64,000 bases of DNA from a virus: positions 1-64,000 of IMG/VR virus record IMGVR_UViG_3300031703_000003. One strand, written 5' to 3'. The notes under the pieces are model-generated. The model was not told the origin of the DNA, did no database searches, and saw only the letters and a program-made list of their open reading frames with translations. The position numbers and the translations under genes were made by a program. Positions 29,401 to 57,500 of this stretch are shown in pieces; position 1 is the first letter of the stretch; each line of letters opens with the position of its first letter.

Positions 29401-32400
29401 TAAAAATCAGAGAACGCTCTTGGTGGATTTAGCTTAACTACTACATTTATTAATGCAGCTTGTCCTGCTGCAGATGTTCTCCAGCTATACTCTAATCCTG
29501 CCCAGTCACCAAACACAAACGGCTTTGATTTGTCTAGTTCTGATATACTGTCAGCACTTAGTACAGTTGCTACGTTTTCTAATTGACCATCTGTTTTAAC
29601 TGGACATTTGCTGACCCAATCCCAATGGTAGTTCGCATGTTTAATATTTTGCTGAGTAGTAGATGATTGACCTGTTTGCAATGCGTTAATAAGTGCAATG
29701 CGCTTAGTTGCATCTGTCCAGCTATACGTTGCATCCCACCATGTTGGCTTAAATCCAAACCCTAGCATGTGCCAAGGTGTTAAATGCGGTGTAGATGTTC
29801 CAAATAATATGTTATAAGCACCTATCCAATGACCTGGTAGTTGTTGTCCACTTAGGTGCCCTTTTAATATTGTACTGCTAAAATTTATTGTGTCTATGTT
29901 ACTTGCATCATATGCAACAGTTGTTTCTGTTAAGTTGCTAATTGACTTCCATGATGTGTACGACTTATATAGCATGTCGTTTACTGTTGCTAACGTGTAC
30001 CACGTAGCATACGTCTGACTAGGCATATAAGATATAGCAGATGCATATTGCACAGTTTGATTGTTTTCACGTTCTGTATTAATGCTATCAGTTACAACTA
30101 AGCCGGCATATATTCTCAACTCAAGTTCAAGTTGCGCTGCGTTAATTGGATCAAATTGTGCAGAGTTCATGTTAGTTAAATCGCTGCCTGGGTTAATATC
30201 CCATTGGTACCCGTCGTGTCCTATTAAAACATTAGTAGGAGCTGCATGCGGAACCCAACCTGGTGCCATTTTCAGTTTAGTAATACTTGGTGGAATATAA
30301 GATGCATCGTCCATTGCGTAATGATATACCGCTATTACTGGAAGCGGTCCTGCTGGCATTGCAACTGGTATATAATCAAATTTTAATGTACTACCTGCCT
30401 GTGTGTAATCAACATCTTTTTGTAACATATGCGTTAACAGAACACCACCTACGTTATCTGTTACGTATACATAAACGTGATCTTGTATGTTATCATCACT
30501 GTGTATGTTATCATCTAGTGTAAGTGTGGGAGCTACTCCTGCTGCAATTTCAAACTCTTGTACAACTGCTTTTGTGTAGTATGCCATGTTTGATGTTGAG
30601 AATAACTTTCCGCCCTTGCGATTGATAGTTATTGATTTTAGTACATCGTCAACTAAACTTTTCACGGATGCATAGTTCTTCTTTCCATACATTCTAACAA
30701 CTTGGTTTCTAAATCTATTTCTAAAGTTATCCCATTCTACACCTGCAGAGTTTAATGCATCTGTTACACTCACAACACTGCTTGCATACAATGCATCACT
30801 TATGATACTAATATCTTTGTGGACAAAAATCTCGCCGCCTAAGTAATTGCCTTTAAACAACTGCGAATAATTGTTAGTGCCGTATACATTTCCAGTAAAT
30901 CCTGGTGTGTTTTCTAGCATATTCTTCCAATGAGAAAATGTCTCGCTCATTGTGAATGTGGTTAGTAATTTATTTGTTGGGTTACTTTTAATCGTATCAG
31001 GTGATGTAATGTTCAATGTATTGTTGCTAACATTATTATCATAATATCTCACATCAACTACATCGCCTAGTGCAATGTGTTCTTTAGCGACTACAATATT
31101 AGCTGCGTTAATTGTATATTTGTCTGTTCCTAGAAACACTCCATTTACGTTAACAGTGTGATATAGGCTATCTTGTTTGTTAGTTGGTATAAGTGTGTAG
31201 GTACCATTGATTGTTGCATCAACTGGTGCGATAACAATCTTTTCATTGTAAGAAGATAAATCTATCACAATAGTATTGTCTGCTTGGTCAGCAGTTGGTG
31301 TAGTACGTGGAACGTCTACTCCGCTTACAGTTTTAATTGTAACTGCTGAATTGAGTAAATTATTATGTATTGTAGTTGATCCTTTATTCACATAAACAAA
31401 GTTATGGTCAACATTAGTTTTATCAAGATATGTTCCATTTTTTAGTTCTGTTATTACACAAGTCTGATTTTCATTTTTTAATGCTTGGTGTAATATAAGT
31501 TCGTGATCAGTTGGTAACCATGTGCTAGACCCAACATTTATTGTTAGATCAGTTGTTAGATCAGTTACATCAACTGTTATAAGTGTTTCTGCAGCATTGG
31601 CTTTTTCGCTTTGCTTGTACACACTACTTAATAAATTATTGTTCTTAAACAAGTATGTGCCATCGATTTTGCGGTACTGATTTACTTTTTTGCTAAACTG
31701 AGAAGTAACACTTTGGTATTGAGTTTCTGTTAGAATATAATTTTCAAATTGATATTCTGCAATGCCGTTGACGTCTTTGTATGCAAGAGCAAATCCTAAT
31801 TCCTTGTCAGTTAGTCCACTGCCAACTTTGTAATTAAATACGCGACTGCCTGCAAATGCAGACCCAGGCAGGTCCTCAAGTGGTGTGCCACTTGTATCGT
31901 ACAACCTAAATAATGGCATTTGATTAATGTTAATGCGTTGCTGACCAGTACTCCACTTCGCGCCTGTCCACCATGCATCTGAATTTGACCAAGCTTTATC
32001 CATTGTGTCTGGTAGTGCTGATCTAATATATGCTGTGTGGTTTGTTTCTAGCACGGCTGTAACTGATTTAGTTATAGTCCAAGTACTAGTAGAGGCATCA
32101 AATGATTTGCTTGCTATTGTGTAAACGTTTGTATCAGTTGATGTGCCGTCTTCGTTTATGAATATAACAGTTTGACCAACTTGTACTTCTGATAGTACAG
32201 CAAGACTTGATCCAACTTCAACTGCAAAGTCAACTATGCCCAGCCATTGTTTAGCAAGAGTAGGACTATAAGAAGCCCAATCCCATAAGTTCATGTTGCC
32301 TTCGAACTCGACAATTGGACGTGATGCAATATTCTTCTGTGCTGTTAACTCTTCTATATTAATGCCGCCATACACTAAATCGTTTATTAATTTAAGTGTG

Positions 32401-33662
32401 TCTACGTTTGTCCATTTATTATTTCTGCTCCAGGCAGTATTGAACACACTGCTAGTAGAAGATACAACGTAATCCTTTTCTGTAAATATCACAACTGACT
32501 TATCATAGTGTGAAGTATCCCAGCCTTTTAGTTTATCTTTGTATGTTGCTATTGCAGCCTCTGTTGTGCCTGCTGCCATTGATTGTGTAAATCCGGTAGC
32601 TGTTTCTGTTGCATCAATTAATAATACAAATGCAATATCGCCTGCTTCTGTGCGTGTAGTGTAATATAGCTTATGGTGTTCTACTTCGTTAAGATTCCAT
32701 TCTTGACTAAATGCAATAAGGTCGCCAACTACAAACTGTGTTTTGTTTGATTCTGCAGACGTAAATGTAAACCCATCAAACAATGGCAATCTTGTTGCGT
32801 CTGCATTGTAATGTGCAAGCATGTCTGTTGGTGTTGTTAGATTATGTGTTGTCCAAAATGAACTACTTACATTAGGATCAATTAATGTTGCGATTTTCTC
32901 ATCCCATAAGCCGCCAACTGTTACTGTTGTTTTTGTTGTTCTTGGTAATATAGTTGTATGTGTTGTCCAATTATAAATTGGAGTAAGCTTAATGCTTGTC
33001 CCTGTCCCTGACACTGCGTATGTGTAGTTTTGTGCATCTGCATGCCAGCCACTGCCAGTAAACTTTATATGCATCTGGTCTCTAAGATTAAATGTATTAT
33101 TGTTATCAGTTAGTATATATGTTAATTGATCAGCTGAAAGGTCGATTGGGTTTATTACATCGCTGAATCCTGCATAGTTACCATTGCGTGAATGTAATAT
33201 GTTTGTTGGATCACTTAATGTTCGTATACTTTCATATGTTGGCATTTGATCAACCCATGCGTAACTTGCGTAGTTAATAAACTTATGAGTGTCAATTGGA
33301 GGATAATAACCATATTGCTTTGTTGCGTATGCTGCGTTGTAATTATATGCGCTAACGTTTACATTAATAGCGTTTGCAATGTCGTCTACTGTAATTGCGT
33401 CTATTAAGTTTTTATTTTTATCTCTTACTGTAATCGTTGACAGCATGTCAGTGCTTGGCAAATACACATCATTCACTGATCGGTTCTTGCCTGACACGTC
33501 TCCAATGAAGCCTTCCACATTTTTTAACGTACCTTTTGAAATCATTCTATCAAGTGTACTATCTAGCCAATTCTTGTTTACATCAGTATTGAAAACCTGA
33601 GGTATTAGACTAGACGCTTTCATCTGTGGAGTATTATAACTTCCTGCTTTTTTCTTAGACAT
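23439..33662 (-). CDS. Giant virion structural protein, probable gp7-position baseplate protein
   Basis: A 3407-residue protein, 16% of the window. N-terminus: LIPQVFNTDVNKNWLDSTLD followed by VEGFIGDVSG, a start I associate with the very long structural protein after gp6 in aquatic T4-like phages. T4 has gp7 (about 1030 residues) at this place, so this may be an enlarged gp7 counterpart, perhaps with added fibre-like domains. Residues about 2130-2215 hold three copies of a 40-residue beta module (TIDGVDILF, GIDGATISF, TINGISIDF). Around 2300-2450 there are stretches like flagellin-hook modules (INSASPSHIIAAAASSKLRITS). CGIC near 2670 and CGSC near 2733 form two CxxC pairs, a possible metal site. 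Start ATG 33662, AGGATAATATTTA before it. Confidence 0.75.
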   Translation of the reverse strand: MSKKKAGSYNTPQMKASSLIPQVFNTDVNKNWLDSTLDRMISKGTLKNVEGFIGDVSGKNRSVNDVYLPSTDMLSTITVRDKNKNLIDAITVDDIANAINVNVSAYNYNAAYATKQYGYYPPIDTHKFINYASYAWVDQMPTYESIRTLSDPTNILHSRNGNYAGFSDVINPIDLSADQLTYILTDNNNTFNLRDQMHIKFTGSGWHADAQNYTYAVSGTGTSIKLTPIYNWTTHTTILPRTTKTTVTVGGLWDEKIATLIDPNVSSSFWTTHNLTTPTDMLAHYNADATRLPLFDGFTFTSAESNKTQFVVGDLIAFSQEWNLNEVEHHKLYYTTRTEAGDIAFVLLIDATETATGFTQSMAAGTTEAAIATYKDKLKGWDTSHYDKSVVIFTEKDYVVSSTSSVFNTAWSRNNKWTNVDTLKLINDLVYGGINIEELTAQKNIASRPIVEFEGNMNLWDWASYSPTLAKQWLGIVDFAVEVGSSLAVLSEVQVGQTVIFINEDGTSTDTNVYTIASKSFDASTSTWTITKSVTAVLETNHTAYIRSALPDTMDKAWSNSDAWWTGAKWSTGQQRININQMPLFRLYDTSGTPLEDLPGSAFAGSRVFNYKVGSGLTDKELGFALAYKDVNGIAEYQFENYILTETQYQSVTSQFSKKVNQYRKIDGTYLFKNNNLLSSVYKQSEKANAAETLITVDVTDLTTDLTINVGSSTWLPTDHELILHQALKNENQTCVITELKNGTYLDKTNVDHNFVYVNKGSTTIHNNLLNSAVTIKTVSGVDVPRTTPTADQADNTIVIDLSSYNEKIVIAPVDATINGTYTLIPTNKQDSLYHTVNVNGVFLGTDKYTINAANIVVAKEHIALGDVVDVRYYDNNVSNNTLNITSPDTIKSNPTNKLLTTFTMSETFSHWKNMLENTPGFTGNVYGTNNYSQLFKGNYLGGEIFVHKDISIISDALYASSVVSVTDALNSAGVEWDNFRNRFRNQVVRMYGKKNYASVKSLVDDVLKSITINRKGGKLFSTSNMAYYTKAVVQEFEIAAGVAPTLTLDDNIHSDDNIQDHVYVYVTDNVGGVLLTHMLQKDVDYTQAGSTLKFDYIPVAMPAGPLPVIAVYHYAMDDASYIPPSITKLKMAPGWVPHAAPTNVLIGHDGYQWDINPGSDLTNMNSAQFDPINAAQLELELRIYAGLVVTDSINTERENNQTVQYASAISYMPSQTYATWYTLATVNDMLYKSYTSWKSISNLTETTVAYDASNIDTINFSSTILKGHLSGQQLPGHWIGAYNILFGTSTPHLTPWHMLGFGFKPTWWDATYSWTDATKRIALINALQTGQSSTTQQNIKHANYHWDWVSKCPVKTDGQLENVATVLSADSISELDKSKPFVFGDWAGLEYSWRTSAAGQAALINVVVKLNPPRAFSDFYYPGTTSQQTNIDYLDRDNKDFHTPASYAVPGTVYNEVVAGITITTSATDKFSKSTYIKLIGDDNAVEALATLSLDETIPTIGSDGVSRYFVTGASISRRGRSHTTEPAVYTNMTASQINNSTITITMKQVEHVACGITQALYNYTLRNNIDYSIDNLHNRIDTQLGTLLNGFSSKHLIDMKTDTYDNTAHTLGENDFDIEMYKSSPIAISIASSIVVTRVATGWEVSGQGYGKQEFLFLEPDNTNTTSYSNVTISGIDVKKYKKFAPVASIVEYNTVLGKIQDTYTFIRGYYAHLESIGFKFPYSGDSVAIAFVKWAITAPAYTSNPSKIFNIGKTLTFSPAHGVVEELNKGVFKENTVARLDGSIIDSESLNVSRLDNVLTLTTKENETIGSVGFVVVQYEHIALLNNKTKFGVVVKDSVSNTGQDKIKFRGLITDAWTGSKSAPGYLVFDNKIVENFDSSVQAIDDYYRADGIDFNPAITKLENITIGNSNNSLTIAGNEFDEITKRDFYQGLIKQRGSRNSIDKIERKFAEDKLDVNVHEQYMLSRSYFGNTDRLNSVEFTLQNNKLETSPQVIKFASFADAETVYDDVLVYNSGDKRFVNPGNTAFATSSITSGNVKNLTAGSVLEIEAKYKVNTTTEISNVFDTIADYSTISTWNKAVSYKLTNLTRYQGQLFECIVPNTTISTVSTDIKQTGNVRPEFSYGTIATIDGVDILFQSSVDVRSDIVATGTVVNPTIASGTTLGIDGATISFINMQEVAVVTGPAEIIGTIANPVISDVAGKAITINGISIDFSNAAPGDSTEEFNGINNAVTPANIVETMNSVAGQSVYTVAQTISAAGYTIATVEVDGANAYTKGGFYGAFISGQDLDFTELGWAAFSEPSVEIIITLSSVAAADDLEDTFTVVEDITSTARVIKHVKVDNVLNLVGTDYSIAGQDVVFTTAPLSGAEITITITNTPVAITSAEIATTINNTLTAASISITAGVDNAILADLDPVFNRLRIRYWAPDTTSLLIVTPSATNALIGLKATGYNVITPSTIVTQGIALSLAQIVNQINSASPSHIIAAAASSKLRITSTGRSLLELSGSLLTSFGLPTSKAAVTNPVQAPTLASDAIIAINAANIAGVTVALNSSNQIEITSVNDTLALTSTIFNQQAGFVTGTVSSLIDSTLDNTFVNSEWLNISHLDPALFNVWVANDSDYAGPAINALKTKFNGWNVFQVQNTELYTEDLANNPSGVNYATCGICAGTHSVDGNDAQVTTQLAHNLAVGDFVMMLNTTTVPNIDGIHKVTKLGSNKEFYIDQYIDTCGSCPSIMTLRTHRFETIANRDAAMLLVQWNTPPGAFIWTDKDTTDVDSVNVFNVAYATTGADAITGAGYTTNATSKILTPVLALVRQQYTRILNTDIDNITVYDYDTNTPVLDLELFDPMRGIIPGVADIEIDVKSVHDVAVYNTSTEEEYEVDVDSAWTDSEVGKRWWDTSKVRYYDYDQGDLKDKSSNWGRQFVDSEVVIWEWTKSSVAPDDYASAVKAQTAMFGVIASGTAYYEFDAIKNQNEYYFTLQSEWNPTVTKYENVYYFWVRNKSTIGSSSKSITTSEVENIITDPSANGIYWFSVVDNDSIIISDIWDFVKKPVVVQLNRAVENNHSQWVLLSKDVDVIPDYWVTGLSNNLAVIDENEDRIPDFNLHAYARYGGDRTKRQAWFDDIPSARLNALNIINRLLVSVNVYDDYNSRFEIALHNAATAPGFEDKLPRNSWSWTDYITADYNTADTYITEVSSIEELNSLDITEYETARIEILNSGKIDRTEFYIHTLDRGWVLAKKNNAAIKWNIERLGKSYTWDMEPWDSVTWDNQFIAAWWKSIVVILRTLLFADRHAIKFNEFFFGMIDYTLTRNKQVDWAMKTSYIRLEVQSSVTQQKKYKKDSVQQIENYVNEIKPFHVKISEVNRSVTAADTVTLGVTETLVINEIDIATLVSTDITPTTWN

Positions 33663-37182: not shown

Positions 37183-37740
37183 CTATCCTAGAGTGACAAT
37201 CTCTGCTAAGTGTAGTTTTTCTTCAGGCCAGTGGAGAAAATCCTGCCATGCCATGTCTGGGATGTACAAATCATAGTGTAATGCAGCGCCGTTAATTTGA
37301 TACCATGTTGGCTTAACTGGCTTAGTTATTGGCCTTACGGGTCTGTCACCTTTTTTAACATTACAAGGTCCGCATGCCGCGACAGTGTTTTCCCATATTA
37401 GCTTTCCGCCTTTGGATTTTGGTATTACATGGTCAATAGTTAAGTCAGCGGCTGCGAACATGTTGCTACAGTACTGACAACAGAATTTATCCCGTATGTA
37501 CAGGTTCCTGCGGCAGAACTTTGCTCTTGTTGGGTGCTTGTGAAATCTATTCATCATAACAACACTTGGTAGTGGTATAGTAAGACTACTGCTTCTTAAA
37601 AATCTATTTTCGTAATTTTTAATAACACGAACTTTGTCTCCAAACATTGCTTTTATTGCAGTCTGCCAACTTATAGTACTAAGTGGCAACATACTTAGTG
37701 GTTGTGCATCTGCATTTAAAAGTAGTACACTGGCATGCAT
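37183..37740 (-). CDS. HNH endonuclease
   Basis: A 185-residue HNH nuclease. Zinc-binding and catalytic blocks are clear: FCCQYCSNMFAAADLTIDHV, with Cys-x-x-Cys and Asp-His, then PKSKGGKLIWENTVAACGPCNVKKGDR with a second Cys pair and the Asn. The N-terminal 80 residues are a VLLLNADAQPLSML-type extension common in such free-standing HNH proteins. It cuts DNA; in phages such genes are often mobile. Position between the lysozyme-like gene and gp25, within the baseplate transcript, fits an inserted free-standing nuclease. Start ATG 37740, AAAGGAAC upstream. Confidence 0.85.
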   Translation of the reverse strand: MHASVLLLNADAQPLSMLPLSTISWQTAIKAMFGDKVRVIKNYENRFLRSSSLTIPLPSVVMMNRFHKHPTRAKFCRRNLYIRDKFCCQYCSNMFAAADLTIDHVIPKSKGGKLIWENTVAACGPCNVKKGDRPVRPITKPVKPTWYQINGAALHYDLYIPDMAWQDFLHWPEEKLHLAEIVTLG

Positions 37741-37753
37741 GTTTCTGTTCCTT

Positions 37754-38479
37754 TTACAGGTTTAGCATAGATGATAATATCCGTTTTCTAGATTCTGCTG
37801 TCTTTGGCAAGAACCGTTTTGTTTCTGCATAATAAACATATTCAGCTTGTGCTTTGCTATGGTCATCTAACAATCTATCTGGATATTTATTTGCTATCTC
37901 TTGTATTCCTTGTTCTTTAATTAATGAACGGTCTTTGGCAATTCCATAATCAGCGAGCATAATAACTTTCGCTTCTAGTTGCCTAGCTACTCTGTTATTG
38001 CCGCTGTTTGTCATTGCAGTAGCTACGTAATCCCATTGTCTGTTTTTTACGTAGTCATATAGTTCAAATGTTCGCTCTGGCGTGCCGACACGTGTCCAAT
38101 CACCTGTGAGGTAATACATACTCAGCATGCCGTCATATTGGCTTTGACTTAGTGACTTTAACACAAACACTTCTTTGAATTTACGTTCTTTGTCTTTGAA
38201 CACTTCAATCCATTTATTGTAAGATGCTGCTTCTGTCAGTCCTGCACTATCAATACCGTCTACTAAATTATACCCAATTTTTGTTATTTTGTCAACATCT
38301 TTATACGCAAATCCTTTCCATTTTATAGTACGCAACATGAGATTTATCATCTCATTGCTTGCTTCAAGTTTGTTTATTGCAATCAACGTAGTAGCCGTTA
38401 TTTTGTTTGCTACTGGAAACAAATCAAACGGCAATAAATCCTTTGATTCAATTACATTTGGTAATACATAGTTTGCCAT
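37754..38479 (-). CDS. Degenerate T4-lysozyme-like protein (split-off gp5 lysozyme domain?)
   Basis: A 241-residue protein. Residues about 45-200 can be laid on T4 lysozyme: MLRTIKWKGFAYKDVDKITKIGYNL against [28 protein letters not shown] (compared in parts: MLRxI, YKD, IGxxL), SLSQSQYDGMLSMYY against the LDAVRRCALINMVF helix, and RQWDYVATAMTNSGNNRVARQLE against the KRWDEAAVNL...NRAKRV region. The catalytic Glu11 position reads Lys/Trp and Thr26 reads Lys; only the Asp20-like residue (YKD) remains. It is probably not a working muramidase. The gene overlaps the gp5-like gene by one base (TAATG). Confidence 0.5.
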   Translation of the reverse strand: MANYVLPNVIESKDLLPFDLFPVANKITATTLIAINKLEASNEMINLMLRTIKWKGFAYKDVDKITKIGYNLVDGIDSAGLTEAASYNKWIEVFKDKERKFKEVFVLKSLSQSQYDGMLSMYYLTGDWTRVGTPERTFELYDYVKNRQWDYVATAMTNSGNNRVARQLEAKVIMLADYGIAKDRSLIKEQGIQEIANKYPDRLLDDHSKAQAEYVYYAETKRFLPKTAESRKRILSSMLNL

Positions 38480-39729
38480 TAGCCTGTGTTTCCTTTGCCT
38501 GTTTCAAATGATTCCTGTACTCCTGTTACACCTTTCCATGGGTGATGCTCTGGTACACGGCTGTTAATGCTTTGTGTAACATTTGAATTTTGTGTTTGTG
38601 CTTGAACTGCTGCTTTGTCGGCTGTTTTTGGAGTAGGACCGTTCATGTCAATTCTACTTCCTTGCATATAAACATTTTGAGAAGCAGTTGCATTGATATT
38701 GCCGTCAGCATTGCTGTTAAGGTTAAGAGCACTGTACACATCAATTGATCCAACACTGCTTTCTATCTTGACGCCTTCGCTTCCTGAACTTTTAATGTTT
38801 ACGCCTTGCTCTGCTTGCATGTTAATACTTCCCTTAGCATGCACGTTATAATCGCCATCAGTTGCTATGCTTACACCGGCTTGGCTGTATATATCTACTT
38901 GTCCTTCGCTGTCCATTTCTATCCATCCGCTGCCGCCCTTGTTTGTTATGAAAATAAATCCATTTGAATCATCAAGTAATATCTGGGCGCCGCCACGTGT
39001 TTTAATTCTAATGTTATCGCTGCCACCTTGTGCGTTGCCGTCGTCTAAGCTTAGTGTGTGTCCTGCTTTTGTTGTAATACCAAATACATTACTTGGGCTT
39101 TCACGTCTAGCACTACTTTCACTATGTCCACGTACATAGTCATTTGCTAACCCAGATTTAACCAGATTGTTATATGCTTCTGGGTTTGATGGGCGGGTAT
39201 CTGGATTCTCAGTGTCGTTTGGATTCTTTTCAGCAGTTGGTGAAAGATAAGTAACATCTTTGTCATCATCAACTCCGTCATACGCGTCGCCACTTGCGTT
39301 GCCGCCCATTGTTGCATTTCTATCACGTGGTGGAAGAAATCCAATTAAGAAGCCCTGTTCCATTGATCCAGTAAATGCTACAAGAACATTTGATCCAGGT
39401 GATGGTGGCTGTGGCCACATGCCATAAGTTTTAGGGGCTCCGTTAACACTGCTACTTGTGTCGCCATAATCTTCGACGTTATCAGATGAATCTGATATTC
39501 TAGTGCTGCCACCAAATGGTGTGCTTAATAATATAATGCGTTCTGCTGTGGGTCCAAGTTCAGGAATAGTTACAGTTATGCGACCATTGCGCTGGGCATC
39601 TGAATCATTTATAACTTCAGCTACGTATATACCGTTGAGTACGTTGACGTTATATCCCTGGCTAACGTTTGCACGTTTAGCAATATTAACGCCTGTTGTT
39701 TTTATGCCTGAGCCGGCTGCTGATGCCAT
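38479..39729 (-). CDS. 5: gp5-like tail spike/hub protein without lysozyme domain
   Basis: A 416-residue protein. The N-terminal OB-fold region has GIYVAEVINDSDAQRNGRITV and PELGPTAERI, then WPQPPSPGSNVLVAFTGS and FLIGFLPPRD, as in gp5/VgrG proteins. The C-terminal 150 residues are short beta repeats (GQVDIYSQAGVSIAT, DYNVHAKGSINMQ, GSIDVYSALNLNSN, GNINATASQNVYM) that fit the triple-stranded beta-helix needle of gp5C. T4 gp5 has a lysozyme domain between these parts; here it is replaced by a linker rich in Asp, Asn and Pro, and the next gene encodes a lysozyme-like domain separately. Ribosome binding site GAGGTAGAATA. Confidence 0.75.
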   Translation of the reverse strand: MASAAGSGIKTTGVNIAKRANVSQGYNVNVLNGIYVAEVINDSDAQRNGRITVTIPELGPTAERIILLSTPFGGSTRISDSSDNVEDYGDTSSSVNGAPKTYGMWPQPPSPGSNVLVAFTGSMEQGFLIGFLPPRDRNATMGGNASGDAYDGVDDDKDVTYLSPTAEKNPNDTENPDTRPSNPEAYNNLVKSGLANDYVRGHSESSARRESPSNVFGITTKAGHTLSLDDGNAQGGSDNIRIKTRGGAQILLDDSNGFIFITNKGGSGWIEMDSEGQVDIYSQAGVSIATDGDYNVHAKGSINMQAEQGVNIKSSGSEGVKIESSVGSIDVYSALNLNSNADGNINATASQNVYMQGSRIDMNGPTPKTADKAAVQAQTQNSNVTQSINSRVPEHHPWKGVTGVQESFETGKGNTG

Positions 39730-46895: not shown

Positions 46896-47348
46896 TTGAG
46901 CAGTGAAAGCAAAACTAGCAACTGGACTTATAACAATGTAGCAGTTGATGAACTGCCGGTAGATGTTGAAGGGTTTGTATATTTAATTACAAACCTTACT
47001 AACAACCGTAAGTATATAGGTAAGAAGTTAGCAAGGTTTAAAACAACTAAGCCTCCTCTTAAAGGAAGAAAGAATAAGAGACGAGGCACAAAGGAAAGTG
47101 ATTGGAGGACCTATTGGGGTTCTTCAGATCATTTGAATGCAGATTTATTAATGTTAGGTGAAGAAAGCTTCACTAGAGAAATTATACATTACTGTCCTAG
47201 CAGAGGAGTATTAAGTTACTTAGAAGCAAAAGAACAGTTTGATCGTAAAGTTTTAGAATCAGATGATTACTACAACGGTATTATTAATGTGAGAGTTGGA
47301 AGTTCTAAGATTCTCACAGAGCATTTAAGAAAGGTCGACAAGCTATAG
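46896..47348 (+). CDS. GIY-YIG nuclease-like protein
   Basis: A 150-residue protein with GFVYLITNLTNNRKYIGKKL, the GIY-YIG pattern, and a YWGSSDHL block; EAKEQFDRKVLE may supply the metal-binding Glu. Members are UvrC-like or Seg-type endonucleases. It starts with TTG at 46896, preceded by AGAAG, and is 11 bases after gp46, so is probably expressed with it. It might be a repair nuclease or a free-standing mobile nuclease. Confidence 0.75.
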   Translation: MSSESKTSNWTYNNVAVDELPVDVEGFVYLITNLTNNRKYIGKKLARFKTTKPPLKGRKNKRRGTKESDWRTYWGSSDHLNADLLMLGEESFTREIIHYCPSRGVLSYLEAKEQFDRKVLESDDYYNGIINVRVGSSKILTEHLRKVDKL

Positions 47349-48478: not shown

Positions 48479-48696
48479 GCTGCTTTTGCAGCCGCGTTAG
48501 ATTCTTCTTTGTTTTTGTTTAATCGTTCTACAAATAATGCCAACGCATCAACAGGCATTGTCATTATTTCATTGTATGAAACTAAACCTCCCGATTTGAT
48601 AACTAAATCAAAATAGCTAGACTCTGTTGCTTTTAAGTCATTGTTGTAACGTTCAACAATTTCATATATTTCACTGGGTTGTCGAGACGCTATCAA
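48466..48696 (-). CDS. Downstream half of a probable -1 frameshift product of gp26 (tail-assembly chaperone-like)
   Basis: This 76-residue frame has no ATG start near its beginning; the first possible start is a TTG (48696) inside the gp26 stop region and without a ribosome binding site. It lies in the -1 frame of gp26 and is open across the slippery site, so it is best read as an extension of gp26. It is helical and charged: PSEIYEIVERYNNDLKATES, MPVDALALFVERLNKNKEE, and Ala/Lys-rich end. Position relative to gp26 and the tape-measure genes fits the T4 gp51 or the T part of lambda GT. Independent translation is possible but less likely. Confidence 0.6.
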   Translation of the reverse strand: MIASRQPSEIYEIVERYNNDLKATESSYFDLVIKSGGLVSYNEIMTMPVDALALFVERLNKNKEESNAAAKAAKTR

Positions 48697-48711
48697 CCCG
48701 CGAAAAAATTT
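48676..48711 (-). promoter_or_regulatory. Programmed -1 ribosomal frameshift signal
   Basis: Minus strand, gp26 frame: GCA AAT TTT TTC GCG GGT TGA. A_AAT_TTT (48711-48705) is a canonical X_XXY_YYZ heptamer; the overlapping T_TTT_TTC is a second one. Five bases on, GGGTTG (48699-48694) pairs with CAACCC (48681-48676), a perfect 6-base stem around a 12-base loop. The stop codon TGA of gp26 falls in this stem. The -1 frame is open on both sides. Confidence 0.75.
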
Positions 48712-49523
48712 GCAAGATCCAAGTCAATGGTAGTTTCCCACTCGTGTCCACAATCTTGGCATTTTGCGTTAAACGATGTATCAATTTGATTGTCGCTTAG
48801 ATCTTCTACGCATGTCTTAATTAAATCATAATCAGACTTTGTAATTGACTGTAACCATTCTAGTATAGTAGCATAGTCAACAGTTGCTTCTGACTCAGGC
48901 GCAGTAACACTAGTAATTGAGTTAGCAATCAACTTCACTGTAATGTCTGCAATTTCAATAAACGTTTCACCAAATCTACGTTGGCGTTCTTCGTCATCTA
49001 ATTCAGCGTCACTCAAGTTCTCAATTAACTTTTGTTGCTTAATACGCTGTAGTTGAAGCCTAGTGCGATCGTATAAGTTATACGGCTTGCACGAAAGGTT
49101 AAACCCGTTGTCAAAATTAACCTCGTTTGAGCTCTCATTTAATGTTACAGTACCTAGTAACGCATTGGTACTGATGCTTAATTGGTTCATGTGATCGCAT
49201 TTTGGACATTTTATATCAACATCAATTGCTTCACCGTAACTTGCTTGTCTAATAGCAATTAGTACAACCATTAGATCATTCACTGGCATTTCGTGTGGAT
49301 CTCCGATACCTGGCGCACAACTTTTAATTAAACTAAAAGTAGCTTCACCGTTGAACAATGCATCTGGTGTCTTAGATACAAGTTCATCTCTTGCTGTCAT
49401 ACTGTATACAGCAAGTTCACCGTCTACACTTAATGTTGGCTTTGTATTATAATACCTGCCGCCACTTGGCAGTGCAACATATAACGCAGGCTTTCTATAT
49501 GCCTGAATAAGAGGATTTGTCAT
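48693..49523 (-). CDS. 26: gp26-like baseplate hub/tail assembly protein
   Basis: A 276-residue homologue of the T4 gp26 family (T4 base plate protein family). It has VALPSGGRYYN near the N-terminus, FSLIKSCAPGIGDPHEMPVND, and two zinc-type pairs, CPKCDHM near residue 108 and CQDCGHEWE near 257, and ends in ANFFAG. The start ATG 49523 has GGAG 10 bases upstream; an ATG at 49535 would leave no site. A late promoter (49558-49565) gives a leader of about 30 bases. At its end is a strong -1 frameshift signal that would make a 352-residue fusion. Confidence 0.75.
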   Translation of the reverse strand: MTNPLIQAYRKPALYVALPSGGRYYNTKPTLSVDGELAVYSMTARDELVSKTPDALFNGEATFSLIKSCAPGIGDPHEMPVNDLMVVLIAIRQASYGEAIDVDIKCPKCDHMNQLSISTNALLGTVTLNESSNEVNFDNGFNLSCKPYNLYDRTRLQLQRIKQQKLIENLSDAELDDEERQRRFGETFIEIADITVKLIANSITSVTAPESEATVDYATILEWLQSITKSDYDLIKTCVEDLSDNQIDTSFNAKCQDCGHEWETTIDLDLANFFAG

Positions 49524-49532
49524 TTTTTTCTC

Positions 49533-49540
49533 CATAAATA
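49533..49540 (+). promoter_or_regulatory. T4-late-type promoter (CATAAATA) of the tape-measure genes
   Basis: CATAAATACTGTAG lies 58 bases before the ATG at 49598, which has AAGGAAACC before it. It faces away from gp26 and lies inside the leader made from the opposite late box. Confidence 0.5.
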
Positions 49541-49597: not shown

Positions 49598-52500
49598 ATG
49601 GATCAAGAACTAATACAGCAGGCAATACAGCAAATTCACGCACAATATCCGTGGGCCAGCGAAGATACAGTACAACGAATCGCACAATTGAGCAGAAGCA
49701 GCAGCATCAAGACTACTGCATTAGCTGTTGCAATACAGCAAGTAGCAGGCGCCGCTGATGCAAAGCAACTAGAAACCTACATAAAAAATGCAACACAAGA
49801 TTTAAATCGAAGTTTAGCAGATTCTAACAGAACAACTAATGCAATTGACAAGCACACACGTAACTTGGGCAGCAGTTTAATGTCCAAATCAAGCGGACTT
49901 GAAAATATGACCGAGCTTGCTTCGGCTGGATCAGAGGCAATGAACGCAGCTGCGCATGGATTAACAGACATGTTACCAGGAAGAGCAAAAGCATTTAAGT
50001 GGGCCGCTACGTCTACTACAGGAGCAGCAGTTGCTTTAACAGGCATTGCAGCAGTGTTTGCTAAACTAATTAGTAGCCAAGAAAAACAATTACGAGCAAT
50101 GATTGACTTAGGCGTTGTAATGGGAGACGTTGATAATTATACAGAAATGCGTGGACAAGCAGCCGCATTTGGTATGTCTCTTGGTGATTATCAAGCAATA
50201 TTACAACAGACAGGTGCAGTTATAACATCAACATCTGGAAGCATGATTGAAGGATCAGGTCGCATGTTTAGATTCTTAACTGATGATAACATGGTAAAAA
50301 GTGTTAAGAACTTTGGATACACACCAAAGGAAACCGCGGCATTGTTAGCAGATGAGACCGCGCAATTGTTTGCTTTAAACGAAATTAACACACTTGGAGC
50401 AGTAGAACAGAAAAAAGTAATTAATAGTTTCGAGGGCGCTAACCAAATGGGTTTATACTTAGCAGACACGCTTGGTGTTCAGCGTTCAGCTATGTTAGCA
50501 TCGAGGCAGCTACTGAGAGAAAATCAAGACTATCAGTTAGCATTTGTACAAAATACAAAATATTTAAACGAAACATTCGGTGATGGCGCTGCAGCAAGAA
50601 GCAGAGAAGGCGCAGATTTCCTAATGATGCTAGCGTCTGGCACAATGGGAGACACGTTTGCAGGACAACTAGCTGATGTAATAGCAGGCACTACTGCTGA
50701 TATACAGTTTGATCGTAGTGCAGTTAACAACATGCTTGATCCACAATTTACAGAAATGCTACAAGGACTTGGACCTAGTGTATTCCAAGGAGTAGTAAAA
50801 TTAATAGAAGACAATGCAATTGGTTCAATAAAAACTCCAGAAGATATGGCAACAAGATACACTGAAATACTTAAACTTATAAAAGGTTCATCTGCATTGT
50901 TAGGTACAAGCTCATTTGCAGATGATGTAAACATGGCTATTGCTACAGCAACAACAGTGCCTCTTGCGTTTCTAGAAGGAACTGCGGTTGAAATAAAAGC
51001 ACGACTCGAAGCCGCACAATCAAAAGTTGATGGCGCAGACGACAGTATAGAAATAGTAGGATCTGTGTCTAAGGCATTCATGCAAGGACTGCACACTGTA
51101 ACGCCAGGATTTAGTTCAATGGGAACTGTAATGACTGTTATGGAAAATTCAGTTGGCACTTTCACAGATTTCTGGTTAGATGTATTTGGATCAGGCAGCA
51201 GCAGTTCAATGACAGACGTCATGACAGACTTTCAACGAGATTCAGCAAACGCTTACCTAGCAGCCCCTGGTTTTAACGTCAATGATAATTTGCCTATTCG
51301 TACAAACACATCTGTTAGTGGAACACTGACAGTGGAACAAGCAACAACTAGTGTCAGTTCCATTACTGATATAGTAAATAAAGCACAACAAGAACATGAT
51401 TCTCTTGTGGATCAATTGAATAACTTCGAAGACGGCAGAGAAGTAGATCAAGTACAGGTAGAATTACTTAAACAAAATATAATAGATGCCAGAGCAAAGC
51501 TACAAACTATTAGGTTAGACGAATTTGCAAAATCTAAAAGCAGAGAAACATTAATAAAAGACTTAATGGAAACAGGCTATAACATACACAGCGATATTAG
51601 ATCAATTGCGTTAGAAAACAAACGTAACGACTTAGTTGACATTGAGGCTGCAATAGAAAAAGCAAAGATTGAAGGCGAAACAGCTACAGTTACCGCGCTA
51701 GAACAAGAAAGAACACAAGCACAAACTATAGTAAGCGATGCTATACTTAAAGTTACTGAACTAGAAAAGAAAGCAGAAGAAAATCAATTAGAACAAGATT
51801 CAGCAGCTGAAGCTGCAATATTAGCACAACAACGATTCAGAGATCAACACATTGCAATTGATATATTAAAAGAACAACTAACAGCCGCAAATGATCCAGA
51901 TAAGTCGGCGTATGTAGCATTGGAAAATGTGCTAATTGCAAATAATGTGCTCTTAACTCAAAAGCAAGCGGCATTAAATGATGCATTAGTAGTGCTCAAT
52001 CAGACTAAAAATCAAACACCTGCTACTGTAACAACTAGTAGTAATTTCGAAGCAGGCGCATCATTGCAAGGTGTAATGTTAGCTGAACTTACTAAACAAG
52101 GAATAACTGATCCAACAGCACAAGCTAATATACTAGCTATGATACAAGGTGAATCAGGTTGGCAAATGCAATCAGAACGCAGTTATAAAAACACAGACAA
52201 CGATAGAATTCGATCAGCAATGGGTAACAGAGTACAACATCTTAATGAGTTTCAGCTTACACAGTTAAAGCAAAACGACCGCGAGTTTTTTGATGTAGTA
52301 TACAGCAATATAGGCGGATATGATTACAGAGGACGAGGTTTTATTCAACTTACTGGTGAACAGAATTATAAATTAGTAGGTGAGATGATTGGTCAGGATT
52401 TACTTGGCAATCCAGATTTAATGAATACTCCGGAAATTGCCGCCCAGGCAAGTGCTGCATACTTTAATCTCCCATGGTGGCAAAAATATCAAGATAATCT

Positions 52501-52873
52501 CGATAACATGTATACAGCATACAAAGTTGTATATGGAATAGACCCTAGAGACATGGCGCCAGGCGCAGCACAGGATATGAGATTAACTGATATTGCAGAA
52601 CGCCAGGTATTTGCAGGTGAATATTCACAAGCATTGAATTCAGGAAAGCTATCAGCAGCTAATACAATTGCACCAGCAGCAATCGATGCACAGACAAAGA
52701 TTAGATCTCTTCAACATGATATTTCAATGATCATAGACGAAGACGGCGATGGAATAAATACAGCTACAAAGGAATTATCAAATGACCAACTAGGAACATT
52801 GATAGCACTAGAACGTCAACTGACTGCTGAAATTGAAACCTTAGCTAAGTTAATGGATACAAGCGGAGCATAG
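49598..52873 (+). CDS. Tape-measure-like protein with C-terminal GH19 (chitinase/lysozyme-type) domain
   Basis: A 1091-residue protein, far longer than T4 gp29 (590). N-terminal block YPWASEDTVQRIAQLS is shared with the next gene. Residues about 130-160 are a hydrophobic segment (GAAVALTGIAAVFAKLI), as in tape-measure proteins, and 590-790 are coiled-coil-like with many Gln, Glu, Ala. Residues about 825-1010 form a glycoside hydrolase 19-like domain: AMIQGESGWQMQSERSYKNTD (catalytic Glu), GYDYRGRGFIQLTGEQNYK (family signature) and NTPEIAAQASAAYF. This domain would cut the peptidoglycan sugar backbone at infection. Late promoter upstream. Confidence 0.75.
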   Translation: MDQELIQQAIQQIHAQYPWASEDTVQRIAQLSRSSSIKTTALAVAIQQVAGAADAKQLETYIKNATQDLNRSLADSNRTTNAIDKHTRNLGSSLMSKSSGLENMTELASAGSEAMNAAAHGLTDMLPGRAKAFKWAATSTTGAAVALTGIAAVFAKLISSQEKQLRAMIDLGVVMGDVDNYTEMRGQAAAFGMSLGDYQAILQQTGAVITSTSGSMIEGSGRMFRFLTDDNMVKSVKNFGYTPKETAALLADETAQLFALNEINTLGAVEQKKVINSFEGANQMGLYLADTLGVQRSAMLASRQLLRENQDYQLAFVQNTKYLNETFGDGAAARSREGADFLMMLASGTMGDTFAGQLADVIAGTTADIQFDRSAVNNMLDPQFTEMLQGLGPSVFQGVVKLIEDNAIGSIKTPEDMATRYTEILKLIKGSSALLGTSSFADDVNMAIATATTVPLAFLEGTAVEIKARLEAAQSKVDGADDSIEIVGSVSKAFMQGLHTVTPGFSSMGTVMTVMENSVGTFTDFWLDVFGSGSSSSMTDVMTDFQRDSANAYLAAPGFNVNDNLPIRTNTSVSGTLTVEQATTSVSSITDIVNKAQQEHDSLVDQLNNFEDGREVDQVQVELLKQNIIDARAKLQTIRLDEFAKSKSRETLIKDLMETGYNIHSDIRSIALENKRNDLVDIEAAIEKAKIEGETATVTALEQERTQAQTIVSDAILKVTELEKKAEENQLEQDSAAEAAILAQQRFRDQHIAIDILKEQLTAANDPDKSAYVALENVLIANNVLLTQKQAALNDALVVLNQTKNQTPATVTTSSNFEAGASLQGVMLAELTKQGITDPTAQANILAMIQGESGWQMQSERSYKNTDNDRIRSAMGNRVQHLNEFQLTQLKQNDREFFDVVYSNIGGYDYRGRGFIQLTGEQNYKLVGEMIGQDLLGNPDLMNTPEIAAQASAAYFNLPWWQKYQDNLDNMYTAYKVVYGIDPRDMAPGAAQDMRLTDIAERQVFAGEYSQALNSGKLSAANTIAPAAIDAQTKIRSLQHDISMIIDEDGDGINTATKELSNDQLGTLIALERQLTAEIETLAKLMDTSGA

Positions 52874-52874
52874 C

Positions 52875-55805
52875 ATGGCAGAAAAAACAAACAACATTAC
52901 ATTACCAACTGGCGACACAGTATCTATACCTGCCTGGGCTAGCGAAGAAACAATGAATCGAGTTGCTTCATATATGTCAGCTACTAACAAAACAGACCAG
53001 CAATTTGTAAAGCTAATGAAGGGAATGGGCAGCGACATGAACTCGTTGCAAAAAACTATTGCAAGCATGGTAGATGCAACTCAGCGCGACAACGCTCAAG
53101 ACCAAGTACAACAAGAAAGCAATGAAGAATTTAGTAGCAAAGTAGTAAAAGCATCAAAGGGAATAAACAAAGTAATGGGCTTCTTTGACCAAGCAGATAA
53201 GCCACTGACTGCATTAACTACAGGCGCTAGCAGCCTTGTGTCAGCTTCACAAAAATCTAAAACTGGAATATTAAATTTTTCTAGCATGATGGATACTGGT
53301 AGCGCAGGAATGGCAGCACTTGGCACTGCGGGAAATGTTGCAATTGACGCAGTACTTGCATACGCAGGCTGGAATGCTGCAAAACTAGAACAGTTCGCAG
53401 TTGCTCAGTCAAAAATAATAGACGCGGGTGTATTGTACGGTGAAGGCGCATCTGCATTTGACGATATAAGAAAGCGCACAATTGATTCTGGTAATACATA
53501 CACTTCGTTGATAGACAACGTGCATCAGTTTGGAGAAGGGATGCTAGGACTCGGCGACACAATGGGCGCTGGCGTAAGTACATTTACAAAGTTTTATGCA
53601 GCATTGGACCAGACAGCAGAAGGCTTAGGCGATTTAGGATTAAAATCAGTTGATATGCAAAAAGCATATGCAGAGTATATATCTTATTCGCGTAGAACAG
53701 GAAGAATTAACAAAGACTTAAACAACAGTGCAAGCCAAGTAAACAAGAGATTCATTGATTTACAAATAGAAGCAGGCGCAGTTGCAAGTCTAACATCATT
53801 AGAACGATCTGAAGCAATGAATCGTTCACTGCAATCAGTTGATCAGTTCGGTGAAGCCGCACAAATGACTCTAAGGCAACACGGGTTACCAGGTCATGCA
53901 GATGTATTAGAAGCAATCACAATGCAACTTGGAAGAGTGGCACCTGATATGAAGATGATGCAAACAATACTAGATGCGTACCAGCGCGAAGCATTTGAAA
54001 AAGCAGGTAATGGCAACATGGCAGATTTTGATATATCTGCAAGAATAGAAACAATGATGCCAGGGCTAACAGCCGCAGTAAGCAATGTAATGCCTGGATT
54101 TATTAATGGATTAGAAGAATTAACACGTAGCGGAACAGCAAGTGCAGACGACATATCTGGTTATGTTGCAAAGGCAATAAAAGCTGCAGATGTGGAAATT
54201 CGTTTAGCATCACAAGGCTCATCAGCTGACAGTGTAGCTGGTATGGTATCTGAACTTCAGACAGCAGCAATTACCGTGAATCGACAACAAGGAAATTTAG
54301 CAGAAGATGGTGCATTAGACCAAGCTATACTAGAACAACGTAATAATTTAAAATCTGCAGGATTAGTTACAACACAAATGAATAACATGACTACACGGTT
54401 CTTGCAATTACAAGAAACATTAACAATGGATATGGAAACAACCGCAGGCATGTTTGATAAACTAAATACCGTGTTAGCAGGAAGTAAAGAAAAACTCCAA
54501 AAGCTTTTGAAATTCGCTGGCGTTGATAATAATAACGATTTTGGTGGAATCGATGGATCTGATCCAACTGCAAAAACAACATCATTAAACGGCAATGTAG
54601 TAGACAATGGTACGTATGTTTCGCCTGTATTAAATAACAGTTCAACTGATACAGCAGGGTTTACCGGAGACGCAACTGAATTAACAAGTGGTACTGGATT
54701 GGATATAAACACAGACACTGCTACTAATACAGCATTGGATTCTACTATGGCAACTTTAATTAGTAAAGATATGCTTACAGTTTCTGATTTTACAGATTTT
54801 ACACAAATATATAATGTTGAAAACACTGTTGCACAATTAAATTCACTTACGCCAGAAATGCGAAGACGCGCAACAGGCGCACTTGTTGATTTTGAAAAAC
54901 AGTACCAGGGCACTGATATTAAATTAATGATCACAGACGGATTTAGAAGTAACACACGAAGCAACCAGTTAAACAGTAGCGGTATAACAGCAGCACCGGG
55001 TGGAAGCAGTTGGCACAATTATGGCTTAGCATTTGATGCACTCGGTGTACAAAACAGCGAAATAATTGAAAACAACAACGGCGGATTTTACAAAGGCCCA
55101 AATTCTATCCTTGAAGGAATAATGAATAAGCACGGACTTGATAATGTGCAAGGTGTAAACGACCCAGGCCATTTCCAAGCAATAGAAACATCGGCTGTTG
55201 TACCAAGCAATATCAAAACAGGCGTAGTTACACCAATTGCCGCAGTACCATTGTGGCACAACTTTAGTAATCCAACAAGTGAAACAGCTGACGCAGGAAC
55301 AAGAAGCAACTCAACTACAGCTAGTGCTTCAAAATCTGAAATAACAATTGCCAAAGAAGTATGGGTGCCAGGCACCCAATTCACAGAAAATCAATATGCT
55401 GCTGTTACAACAAGCAAAGACCTAGGAAATGAAATAAGTCCTGAAATACAAGTTGCGTATGATTTAGGTCCTAAACCAAGACGTGCAGGCGGCCAAGTTG
55501 CAAGTGGAGCCCCTTACATAGTTGGAGATCAAAATGGATTAGATAGTGCTGAACTATTTGTTCCAGATGGCGCTGGAAGTGTAATGAATAACACTAGCTT
55601 GATGCAACTAATTAAATCTATTAGCGAAAATAGGTTGACAGATACGTCATCAGGTAATATAATTAAGAATAGTACAGACCTCTCTGAGTTGTTGCATAGC
55701 AAAGAAGCCGTTGTTCAAACGCTTAAAACATTACAAACTATCGTAAAACGGTTGAATAATACGCAAAATCAAGCGATTGTAACCGACATGACTAACTCGA
55801 GATAA
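52875..55805 (+). CDS. Tape-measure-like protein with M15 (VanY-type) peptidase domain
   Basis: A 976-residue protein, tandem paralogue of the previous gene. It shares the start IPAWASEETMNRVASYMSAT and a hydrophobic segment (AAIDAVLAYAGW region near residue 155). Residues about 655-775 form an M15/VanY-like peptidase: ITDGFRSNTRSNQL, SSWHNYGLAFDAL (HxxGxAxD zinc ligands) and DPGHFQAIE (third His). The C-terminal PRRAGGQVASGAPYIVGDQNG and AELFVPDGAGSVMNN are a common ending of tape-measure proteins. It starts one base after the previous stop (GGAGCATAGC). The peptidase would cut peptide crosslinks. Confidence 0.8.
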   Translation: MAEKTNNITLPTGDTVSIPAWASEETMNRVASYMSATNKTDQQFVKLMKGMGSDMNSLQKTIASMVDATQRDNAQDQVQQESNEEFSSKVVKASKGINKVMGFFDQADKPLTALTTGASSLVSASQKSKTGILNFSSMMDTGSAGMAALGTAGNVAIDAVLAYAGWNAAKLEQFAVAQSKIIDAGVLYGEGASAFDDIRKRTIDSGNTYTSLIDNVHQFGEGMLGLGDTMGAGVSTFTKFYAALDQTAEGLGDLGLKSVDMQKAYAEYISYSRRTGRINKDLNNSASQVNKRFIDLQIEAGAVASLTSLERSEAMNRSLQSVDQFGEAAQMTLRQHGLPGHADVLEAITMQLGRVAPDMKMMQTILDAYQREAFEKAGNGNMADFDISARIETMMPGLTAAVSNVMPGFINGLEELTRSGTASADDISGYVAKAIKAADVEIRLASQGSSADSVAGMVSELQTAAITVNRQQGNLAEDGALDQAILEQRNNLKSAGLVTTQMNNMTTRFLQLQETLTMDMETTAGMFDKLNTVLAGSKEKLQKLLKFAGVDNNNDFGGIDGSDPTAKTTSLNGNVVDNGTYVSPVLNNSSTDTAGFTGDATELTSGTGLDINTDTATNTALDSTMATLISKDMLTVSDFTDFTQIYNVENTVAQLNSLTPEMRRRATGALVDFEKQYQGTDIKLMITDGFRSNTRSNQLNSSGITAAPGGSSWHNYGLAFDALGVQNSEIIENNNGGFYKGPNSILEGIMNKHGLDNVQGVNDPGHFQAIETSAVVPSNIKTGVVTPIAAVPLWHNFSNPTSETADAGTRSNSTTASASKSEITIAKEVWVPGTQFTENQYAAVTTSKDLGNEISPEIQVAYDLGPKPRRAGGQVASGAPYIVGDQNGLDSAELFVPDGAGSVMNNTSLMQLIKSISENRLTDTSSGNIIKNSTDLSELLHSKEAVVQTLKTLQTIVKRLNNTQNQAIVTDMTNSR

Positions 55806-55835: not shown

Positions 55836-57500
55836 ATGAGCTGGAAAAAACATTTTACAAAATACGAACCAAACAATGGTAATGCTTTTGGACAAAAAAC
55901 AAATCGATGGGCAAGTTGGCTTCCAGAAGTCTACAGCGGTCAACCAAACCGAGTAGAACGATATGGTCAATACGACATCATGGACCAAGACAGCGAGATA
56001 AACTCGGCGCTTGACACCATTGCTGAATTCAGTACACAATTTGCAGCAGATACCAAACTACCATTTAAAGTTAACTACAAAGACGACGCAACTGAATCAG
56101 AAGTCAATGCATTAGAAACAGCATTACGTCAGTGGGTAAACATCAATGAATTTGATCGTAGAATACATGGATTGTTTCGCAGTTGTATTAAGTATGGCGA
56201 CCAGTTCTTTATACGCGATCCGGAAACATATAAGTTATACTGGGTAAACGTACAAGATGTGTCTAAGGTAATTATAAATGAAAGTGCTGGCAAAGAAGTA
56301 GAACAGTACCTTGTAAAAAATATTAGTTTAAATTTACAAAGCCAAGTAGTAGTTGACACTAAGCAAACACAAGATGCTCAGTCTGGTACTGCAATGCTTT
56401 CACCTAACAAAACAAATGCAGGCATTGTTAATACTGGCGGCACAAGCTCTCAAATGACAGAGTTTGCAGTAGACGCATCAAACATGTTACACATTGCACT
56501 TAGTGACGGATTAACAAACGCTTGGCCGTTTGGTAACAGTATACTTGATAGTGTATTTAAAGTGTACAAGCAAAAAGAATTATTAGAAGATAGTATTATT
56601 ATCTATCGTGTACAACGTGCTCCAGAGCGTAGAGTATTTTATGTTGATGTTGGTAACTTACCACCGCATAAAGCTATGGCATTTGTTGAGCGTACTAAAA
56701 ACGAAGTACACCAAACACGTATTCCAAATATGAGCGGTGGCGGAACAAAAGTAATGGACGCTGCTTACAATCCATTATCAATAATGGAAGATTATTTCTT
56801 TGCTCAGACAGCAGAGGGTCGTGGATCAAAAGTAGAAGTATTACCAGGCGGTGACAACCTAGGTGAGATTGACGATTTAAAATACTTTAACAACAAGTTA
56901 ATGCGCGGCTTGCGCATACCAAGTAGTTACTTACCAACTGGAGCAGACGATGGTTCTGCGTCATACACTGATGGACGTGTAGGCACAGCAATGATACAAG
57001 AATTCCGTTTTAGTAAGTACTGCGAAAGATTACAAAACACTATACTTCCACCACTGGACAGAGAATTTAAAATGTTCATAAAAAACAGAGGAATTGAAGT
57101 ATCAAGTAGTTTGTTCGAATTAAACTTTATTGACCCACAAAGCTTTAGCCAGTATAGAGAACTTGAACTTGACACAGCACGTGCATCTTTGTTCTCTAAC
57201 TTAGAAGGCGTTCCTTATCTTTCAAGACGCTTTATATTATCAAAATATCTTGGACTATCAGAAGACGAAGTTATTAATAATGAGCGCATGTGGAAAGAAG
57301 AAAACAACACAGATGAGAATTCGTTTACAAATGATTCAGCCGCAGACTTAGGCGGCCTTGGTGTTAGAAACACTGACATTGATACGTTTGAACCAACTGA
57401 CGTAGATGCAGAAAACGATCTAGGAGATGACATGGAAGTTGATGTAGACAATCCATCTCCAATGGGTAACACAGCACCAGGAGACACTGATGAGATTTAA
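55836..57500 (+). CDS. 20: Portal protein gp20
   Basis: A 554-residue homologue of T4 gp20 (524), the twelve-subunit ring at the capsid vertex for DNA packaging and tail joining. Recognisable blocks: NRVERYGQYDIMDQDSEINS, ALDTIAEFSTQFA, HIALSDGLTNAWPFGNSILD, IIIYRVQRAPERRVFYVDVG, YNPLSIMEDYFFAQTAEGRG and KYFNNKLMRGLRIPSSYLP. The C-terminus is acidic. In T4 it is preceded by gp19; here by the tape-measure genes. Confidence 0.93.
   Translation: MSWKKHFTKYEPNNGNAFGQKTNRWASWLPEVYSGQPNRVERYGQYDIMDQDSEINSALDTIAEFSTQFAADTKLPFKVNYKDDATESEVNALETALRQWVNINEFDRRIHGLFRSCIKYGDQFFIRDPETYKLYWVNVQDVSKVIINESAGKEVEQYLVKNISLNLQSQVVVDTKQTQDAQSGTAMLSPNKTNAGIVNTGGTSSQMTEFAVDASNMLHIALSDGLTNAWPFGNSILDSVFKVYKQKELLEDSIIIYRVQRAPERRVFYVDVGNLPPHKAMAFVERTKNEVHQTRIPNMSGGGTKVMDAAYNPLSIMEDYFFAQTAEGRGSKVEVLPGGDNLGEIDDLKYFNNKLMRGLRIPSSYLPTGADDGSASYTDGRVGTAMIQEFRFSKYCERLQNTILPPLDREFKMFIKNRGIEVSSSLFELNFIDPQSFSQYRELELDTARASLFSNLEGVPYLSRRFILSKYLGLSEDEVINNERMWKEENNTDENSFTNDSAADLGGLGVRNTDIDTFEPTDVDAENDLGDDMEVDVDNPSPMGNTAPGDTDEI

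Follow-up and report, generated by a model that had tools for sequence, protein, structure and literature searches.

A tandem pair of tape-measure-like paralogues with glycan- and peptide-hydrolase-like domains in an uncultured T4-like jumbo phage

A phage tail is generally regarded as containing a single kind of tape-measure protein, in the form of a homotrimer or a homohexamer. In the T4-type contractile tail this role belongs to gp29, a protein of 590 aa encoded downstream of gp26 and devoid of any enzyme domain. A wall-cutting domain inside the tape measure is itself a familiar arrangement, found in TM4 gp17, T5 pb2, phiCbK gp95 (CHAP) and phiIPLA35 (muramidase), and is shared by the locus reported here; however, in those phages the enzyme resides on one protein, whereas here two paralogues carry two different chemistries, and the likeness drawn here is one of domain content. 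Closer to the present phage, the Rak2-like and other T4-like jumbo phages have one gene in the slot between the gp26-like hub and the gp20 portal genes, while the lineage described below has two. The single proteins GAP32_244, CBB_251, 121Q gp597, PA5oct gp335 and Atu_ph07 FDI40_gp197 occupy this same slot and possess a homologous core, and the two-gene pair was not found in any of the records inspected. Hydrolase-bearing tape measures are already known. No case of a phage with a second, duplicated or paralogous tape measure was met in the literature searched, and a paper on Microbacterium phages that contains the words "two distinct tape" (PMC7302621) may hold a precedent.

The pair lies in a stretch of 64,000 nucleotides, here called the window, which is included in a 71,496-base virus record of an uncultured T4-like jumbo phage. 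At the protein level, the portal of the window is about 49-52% identical to its best isolate match and 59-74% identical to those of the closest metagenomic contigs. The first gene, A (49598..52873, plus strand), encodes 1091 aa, and the second, B (52875..55805, plus strand), 976 aa; both coordinates and strand agree with an earlier note on this DNA, in which the two were described as adjacent tape-measure-like paralogues, each with a different wall-hydrolase domain. The slot is bordered on the left by a T4 gp26-like baseplate hub protein on the minus strand (48693..49535; PF12322, 2e-23; phrog_150) and on the right by a gp20-like portal protein on the plus strand (55836..57500; PF07230, 1.1e-104). 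The pair is thus placed among tail and baseplate genes, as a tape measure should be, and the slot is the same in relatives. These were collected via the portal and via an alignment of B homologues. The collection comprises 62 complete A+B pairs from public viral contigs, all metagenomic, which reduce to 37 distinct pairs once near-duplicates are removed, together with about 50 loci with a single-gene slot. In the window, B begins one base past the stop of A; among the 37 distinct pairs, the two reading frames overlap by up to 26 bases or are separated by up to 15, an overlap of 1, 8 or 11 bases being the usual case. The sole interruption noticed among the loci examined is in L101, where an additional open frame of about 230 codons separates A from B.

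The domain claimed for the first gene is readily confirmed. The GH19 domain of A (residues about 831-971, 52088..52510, plus strand) scores 35.4 bits against Pfam PF00182, above the cut-off of 25.5 bits (E 1.3e-8), and matches the solved GH19 endolysins/chitinases 8p8e and 4ok7 (9e-11 and 1.4e-10), the latter being the SPN1S endolysin. It contains the GESGW and GYDYRGRGFIQLTG motifs at residues 851 and 907, and the domain recurs in the A protein of relatives. Two candidate catalytic glutamates, E852 and E860, are conserved in all five GH19-bearing loci (window, L090, L092, L098, L101), the second lying one residue off the SPN1S spacing as judged by eye.

For the second gene, where an M15/VanY peptidase had been proposed, the metal-ligand motif is present and the profile match falls short. 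In B, at residues about 640-770 (54792..55184, plus strand), VanY reaches 19.7 bits against a cut-off of 25 (E 8e-4) and Peptidase_M15_4 15.1 against 25; because both scores are under the Pfam cut-off, the domain is named M15-like. The same region also matches PHROG endolysins, and its match to the phage L-Ala-D-Glu peptidases 2vo9 and 6akv is weak (E 0.04). Nevertheless, the metal-ligand motif is complete, with H714, D721 and H766 and with D763 at the position of the catalytic acid, within the SSWHNYGLAFD (residue 711) and DPGHFQ (residue 763) segments; the metal ligands and GHFQ are common to the B proteins of the window, L097 and L012. The AF2 confidence at residues 640-690 is about 90 (pLDDT). 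A glycan-cutting and a peptide-cutting domain are accordingly both present in the pair as judged by sequence, with a weak score for the peptidase.

As to how these domains arose, inspection of the relatives shows the earlier note, in which each copy gained its enzyme after the duplication, to be only partly right. A recognised enzyme (GH19, lysozyme-like, SLT or M15-like) is present in A in 12 of the 37 pairs, and none is recognised in the other 25; M15 in B is limited to three pairs (window, L097, L012), and B is without it in L090, L091, L093 and L101, whose A and B proteins are the nearest in sequence to those of the window. One enzyme per copy can hardly be the defining step of the pair. 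Besides the five GH19-bearing loci, A carries a lysozyme-like domain (PHROG 30077/37890) in L094, L097/L012, L102, L110, L140 and L146, an SLT transglycosylase in L118, and an M15-like domain in L123 and, by motif only, in L142 and L160. The enzymes are located past the conserved core and ahead of the C-terminal helix, and since this segment is variable, they look like late, exchangeable cargo, with at least four enzyme types gained by A in different lineages. The C-terminal half of the tape measure would consequently represent an exchangeable wall-enzyme site across one virus lineage.

A further feature distinguishes the C-terminal regions of the two proteins. Near the end of B (55479..55589, plus strand) the sequence GGQVASGAPYIVGD...AELFVP corresponds to a VGExGPELF-type motif, which is found in 15 of the 37 B proteins, counting those of L110 and L118 as read separately, and in no A or single-copy protein. 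In the B protein of L166, the match to the PHROG tape-measure family phrog_5062 falls on this motif. Its occurrence in B goes along with that of an enzyme in A, in 11 of 12 enzyme pairs versus 4 of 25 enzyme-free ones, these being raw counts that ignore kinship.

The computations described above and below show that the two proteins are paralogues, homologous to the slot protein and related to tape measures, that both are retained and covary in length, and which domains they carry; from this we infer a likely arrangement of the two in the virion. The single tape-measure gene of related T4-like jumbo phages would have been duplicated once in tandem, long ago, and A and B would now run alongside each other in the lumen of the tail as one helical bundle of mixed composition (three A with three B, for instance), anchored at the hub by their C-terminal helices and with the N-terminal halves facing the neck. 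Together, the two would fix tail length, while the variable region ahead of the C-terminal helix would serve as the cargo site, holding in this phage a GH19 glycan hydrolase on A and an M15-type peptidase on B. When the tail contracts, this bundle would leave before the DNA does, and its two enzyme domains would open the wall locally. The tape measure of diffocin is a trimer with its C-terminus on the spike and its N-terminus at the collar (PMC11329794), sixfold features have been suggested for that of Pam3, and that of RcGTA is a trimer (PMC7296036); an A3B3-type bundle would meet the same geometry. A paralogous pair forming a mixed bundle that jointly sets tail length and carries wall-enzyme cargo is, on balance, the probable reading. 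Its most specific form, a heteromeric ruler whose strands must match, so that a hydrolase insert in one is offset by lengthening of the other and two wall activities are delivered, is put forward more tentatively, at slightly under even chances. A split ruler with its copies in step would offer a natural test of how such rulers work: which of the strands is measured, whether globular cargo contributes, and by what means strands of unlike composition are matched.

The new result bearing on this arrangement is the coupling between the lengths of A and B. Across the 37 pairs the two lengths are correlated with r 0.93, and correction for phylogeny by independent contrasts, using a tree built from both cores, leaves r at 0.84. 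The 12 largest contrasts are all concordant in sign; overall the signs agree in 21 of 33, which is not significant, the small contrasts being noisy, and r falls to 0.55 once the strongest five are removed. As a control, the lengths of A and B were compared with those of the neighbouring gp26-like and portal proteins, giving contrast r of -0.01 to 0.09. Two strands spanning the same tube would show such a pattern, and the covariation speaks for a mixed ruler in which A and B each extend along the tube. On the question left by the earlier note, namely which of the two sets the tail length, the phylogeny-corrected covariation favours both.

The covariation may also have a different origin, in that the C-terminal regions of A and B may have been lengthened together for other reasons. 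Lineages facing thick or unusual walls could extend both regions with enzymes and linkers, with no physical matching of strands. Most of the added length does lie beyond the conserved core, in the surroundings of the enzymes, and, being largely low-confidence or probably disordered, it may be linker and not ruler; the co-occurrence of an enzyme in A with the VGExGPELF-type motif in B points in the same direction. However, the coupling persists in hydrolase-free pairs (r 0.82; 0.60 without two long outliers, p 0.004) and after subtraction of the enzyme domains (r 0.63). In addition, TM4 tails become about 20 nm shorter when a 114-aa hydrolase motif is deleted from the tape measure (PMC1796659), which indicates that the hydrolase domain counts in that ruler. 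This precedent explains why the gain of an enzyme in A could require a longer B, and is no proof of it. Wall-driven lengthening of this kind appears possible and somewhat unlikely.

A division of labour between the copies, with B alone as the ruler and A as a former tape measure that travels in the lumen to deliver wall enzymes or pilot the DNA and has no part in setting length, is also judged unlikely, and a little more so. It fits the observations that B is closer than A to the single-copy protein, both in profile comparison and in BLASTP matches, and that the VGExGPELF-type motif is confined to B; moreover, enzymes are borne mostly by A (in 12 of the 37 pairs, against three for B). A mere passenger would hardly be expected to covary in length with B and not with the neighbouring genes, as A does, nor to be retained without a recognised enzyme in 25 pairs and with almost the length of B (A/B ratio 0.965, SD 0.025, in 23 of them).

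The assignment of the pair as tape measures rests on several features of the slot protein and is well supported. In the relatives, the single slot gene, lying between the gp26-like gene and the portal, encodes about 600-950 aa and is annotated in cultured phages as "structural" or "hypothetical". A and B each match the single-copy slot profile. Members of the single-copy set (43 homologues) match the PHROG tape-measure families 167, 794, 23574, 1535 and 10613, and B members match families 10574, 1538 and 5062. In Foldseek comparison of the A model with viral models, the top match is the 845-aa slot protein of Atu_ph07, followed by many annotated tape measures, with low TM-scores throughout; against the PDB (Foldseek/VIA), the whole A and B models give generic helical matches alone. 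The AF2 models, weak overall (pLDDT 65 and 58), consist almost entirely of helix apart from the enzyme domains and the C-terminal linker of B, consistent, at this modest confidence, with long, mainly alpha-helical, extended proteins. Taken together, the family, profile and fold matches bear out the description of the pair as tape-measure-like.

The slot protein is, furthermore, a component of the virion in the relatives. CBB_251 was detected in CBB virions by 29 peptides at 50% coverage (PMC5259590), and PA5oct gp335 is a virion protein by MS. At about 0.15 nm of tail per residue, the protein is also of suitable length: 845 aa for a tail of 136 nm in Atu_ph07 (PMC6102473), and 798 aa/136 nm in PA5oct, 720 aa/118 nm in GAP32 and 734 aa/115 nm in 121Q (PMC3936114), where the tail lengths are as reported and, for at least some of the four phages, were taken with the neck and baseplate. 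The agreement concerns a handful of single-copy isolates, none of them pair-bearing. The presence in CBB and PA5oct virions, the tape-measure family matches and the fit to tail length thus lead to the slot being that of the tape measure, and this provides a candidate tape measure for many jumbo T4-like phages in which the slot gene is just "structural" or "hypothetical".

That the slot protein is some other virion component and the true ruler lies elsewhere is very unlikely. The authors of the Atu_ph07 study annotated another gene, gp701, as the tape measure (PMC6102473); its product has 205 aa and is by the usual rule too short to span a 136-nm tail, while the 845-aa slot protein fits. Similarity between the slot family and T4 gp29 is likewise undetectable: when three profiles of the family were aligned by hhalign with one gp29 sequence, the probability was about 0.1%; nonetheless, the PHROG and fold matches point to tape measures. 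A slot of a different organisation was observed in Vibrio phage 2.275.O (L171, 2289-6313), which holds two genes on the opposite strand, one matching the single-copy tape-measure profile (1.3e-41) and the other, of 707 aa, matching none of the profiles.

The shared N-terminal block from which the duplication had been proposed is only partly apparent in the window pair itself. WASEDT occurs at residue 19 of A and WASEETMNRVA at residue 21 of B, and the similar hydrophobic region that had been claimed is recovered as a weak stretch at corresponding places (A 138-158, B 144-164), yet BLASTP of window A versus window B gives no significant similarity, nor does either protein versus GAP32_244. At the profile level the relationship extends well beyond the WASE motif: the A profile (36 homologues) aligns with the B profile (37) over 502 columns at 99.9% probability (hhalign, E 1.3e-35) and with the single-copy slot profile at 99.6%, and the B profile aligns with the latter as well. 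These alignments delimit a conserved core at residues 16-533 of A (49643..51196, plus strand) and 18-549 of B (52926..54521, plus strand), that of A being homologous to the B core and to the single-copy slot protein. Orthologues also give significant BLASTP matches, 1e-15 for L017 A versus L017 B and 3e-10 for window A versus L017 B, which, with the profile match, makes the resemblance more than chance. That A and B are unrelated and share a short N-terminal motif by coincidence, as the insignificant BLASTP of the window pair might suggest, is refuted by the profile comparison, the orthologue matches and the joint tree, and is practically untenable.

In the joint tree of 119 sequences, the A clade has a support of 1.0 and the B clade of 0.91; A and B together stand apart from 45 single-copy homologues (0.78), whose own clade has 0.993. 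Both copies are kept in all 37 distinct complete pairs. Judged from these alignments and the tree, the duplication, common to the 37 distinct pairs, is old, and the simplest history is a single event at the base of the pair lineage with both copies kept since; the tandem paralogues are in this respect as originally described. Among 50,697 phage records, tblastn of B (window, L127, L013) gave no match, and that of A matched almost solely through its C-terminal GH19 region; a scan of genome contigs gave no relative and hence no hint of the host.

The adjoining baseplate cluster was compared with that of T4, in which gp5 carries a lysozyme at the tail tip in the virion. The gp5-like hub homologue of the window (38479-39729, minus strand; 416 aa) is without a lysozyme match, and a separate lysozyme-like gene (37754-38479, minus strand; PF00959 in relatives) has lost most of its catalytic positions. 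Within the pair lineage this gene keeps the first catalytic Glu (LEAS), whereas the positions of Asp and Thr, together with the His that comes next, are mostly lost, unlike in GAP32. A simple rule by which tape-measure enzymes replace the T4-type tail lysozyme was considered and rejected, since enzyme-free pairs also carry the degenerate lysozyme-like gene.

Three other genes of the window are recorded here. Between the gp25-like and the lysozyme-like genes lies an HNH endonuclease gene (37183-37740, minus strand; PHROG 16726), likely a homing-endonuclease insertion into the baseplate cluster. A 150-aa open reading frame (46896-47348, plus strand; YLITN...KYIGKK), GIY-YIG nuclease-like by eye, is found near the site at which an EndoVII-type packaging/recombination nuclease is encoded in GAP32. 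Adjoining a baseplate wedge gene, a reading frame of about 10 kb (23439-33662, minus strand) encodes a virion structural protein of 3407 aa (PHROG 10938).
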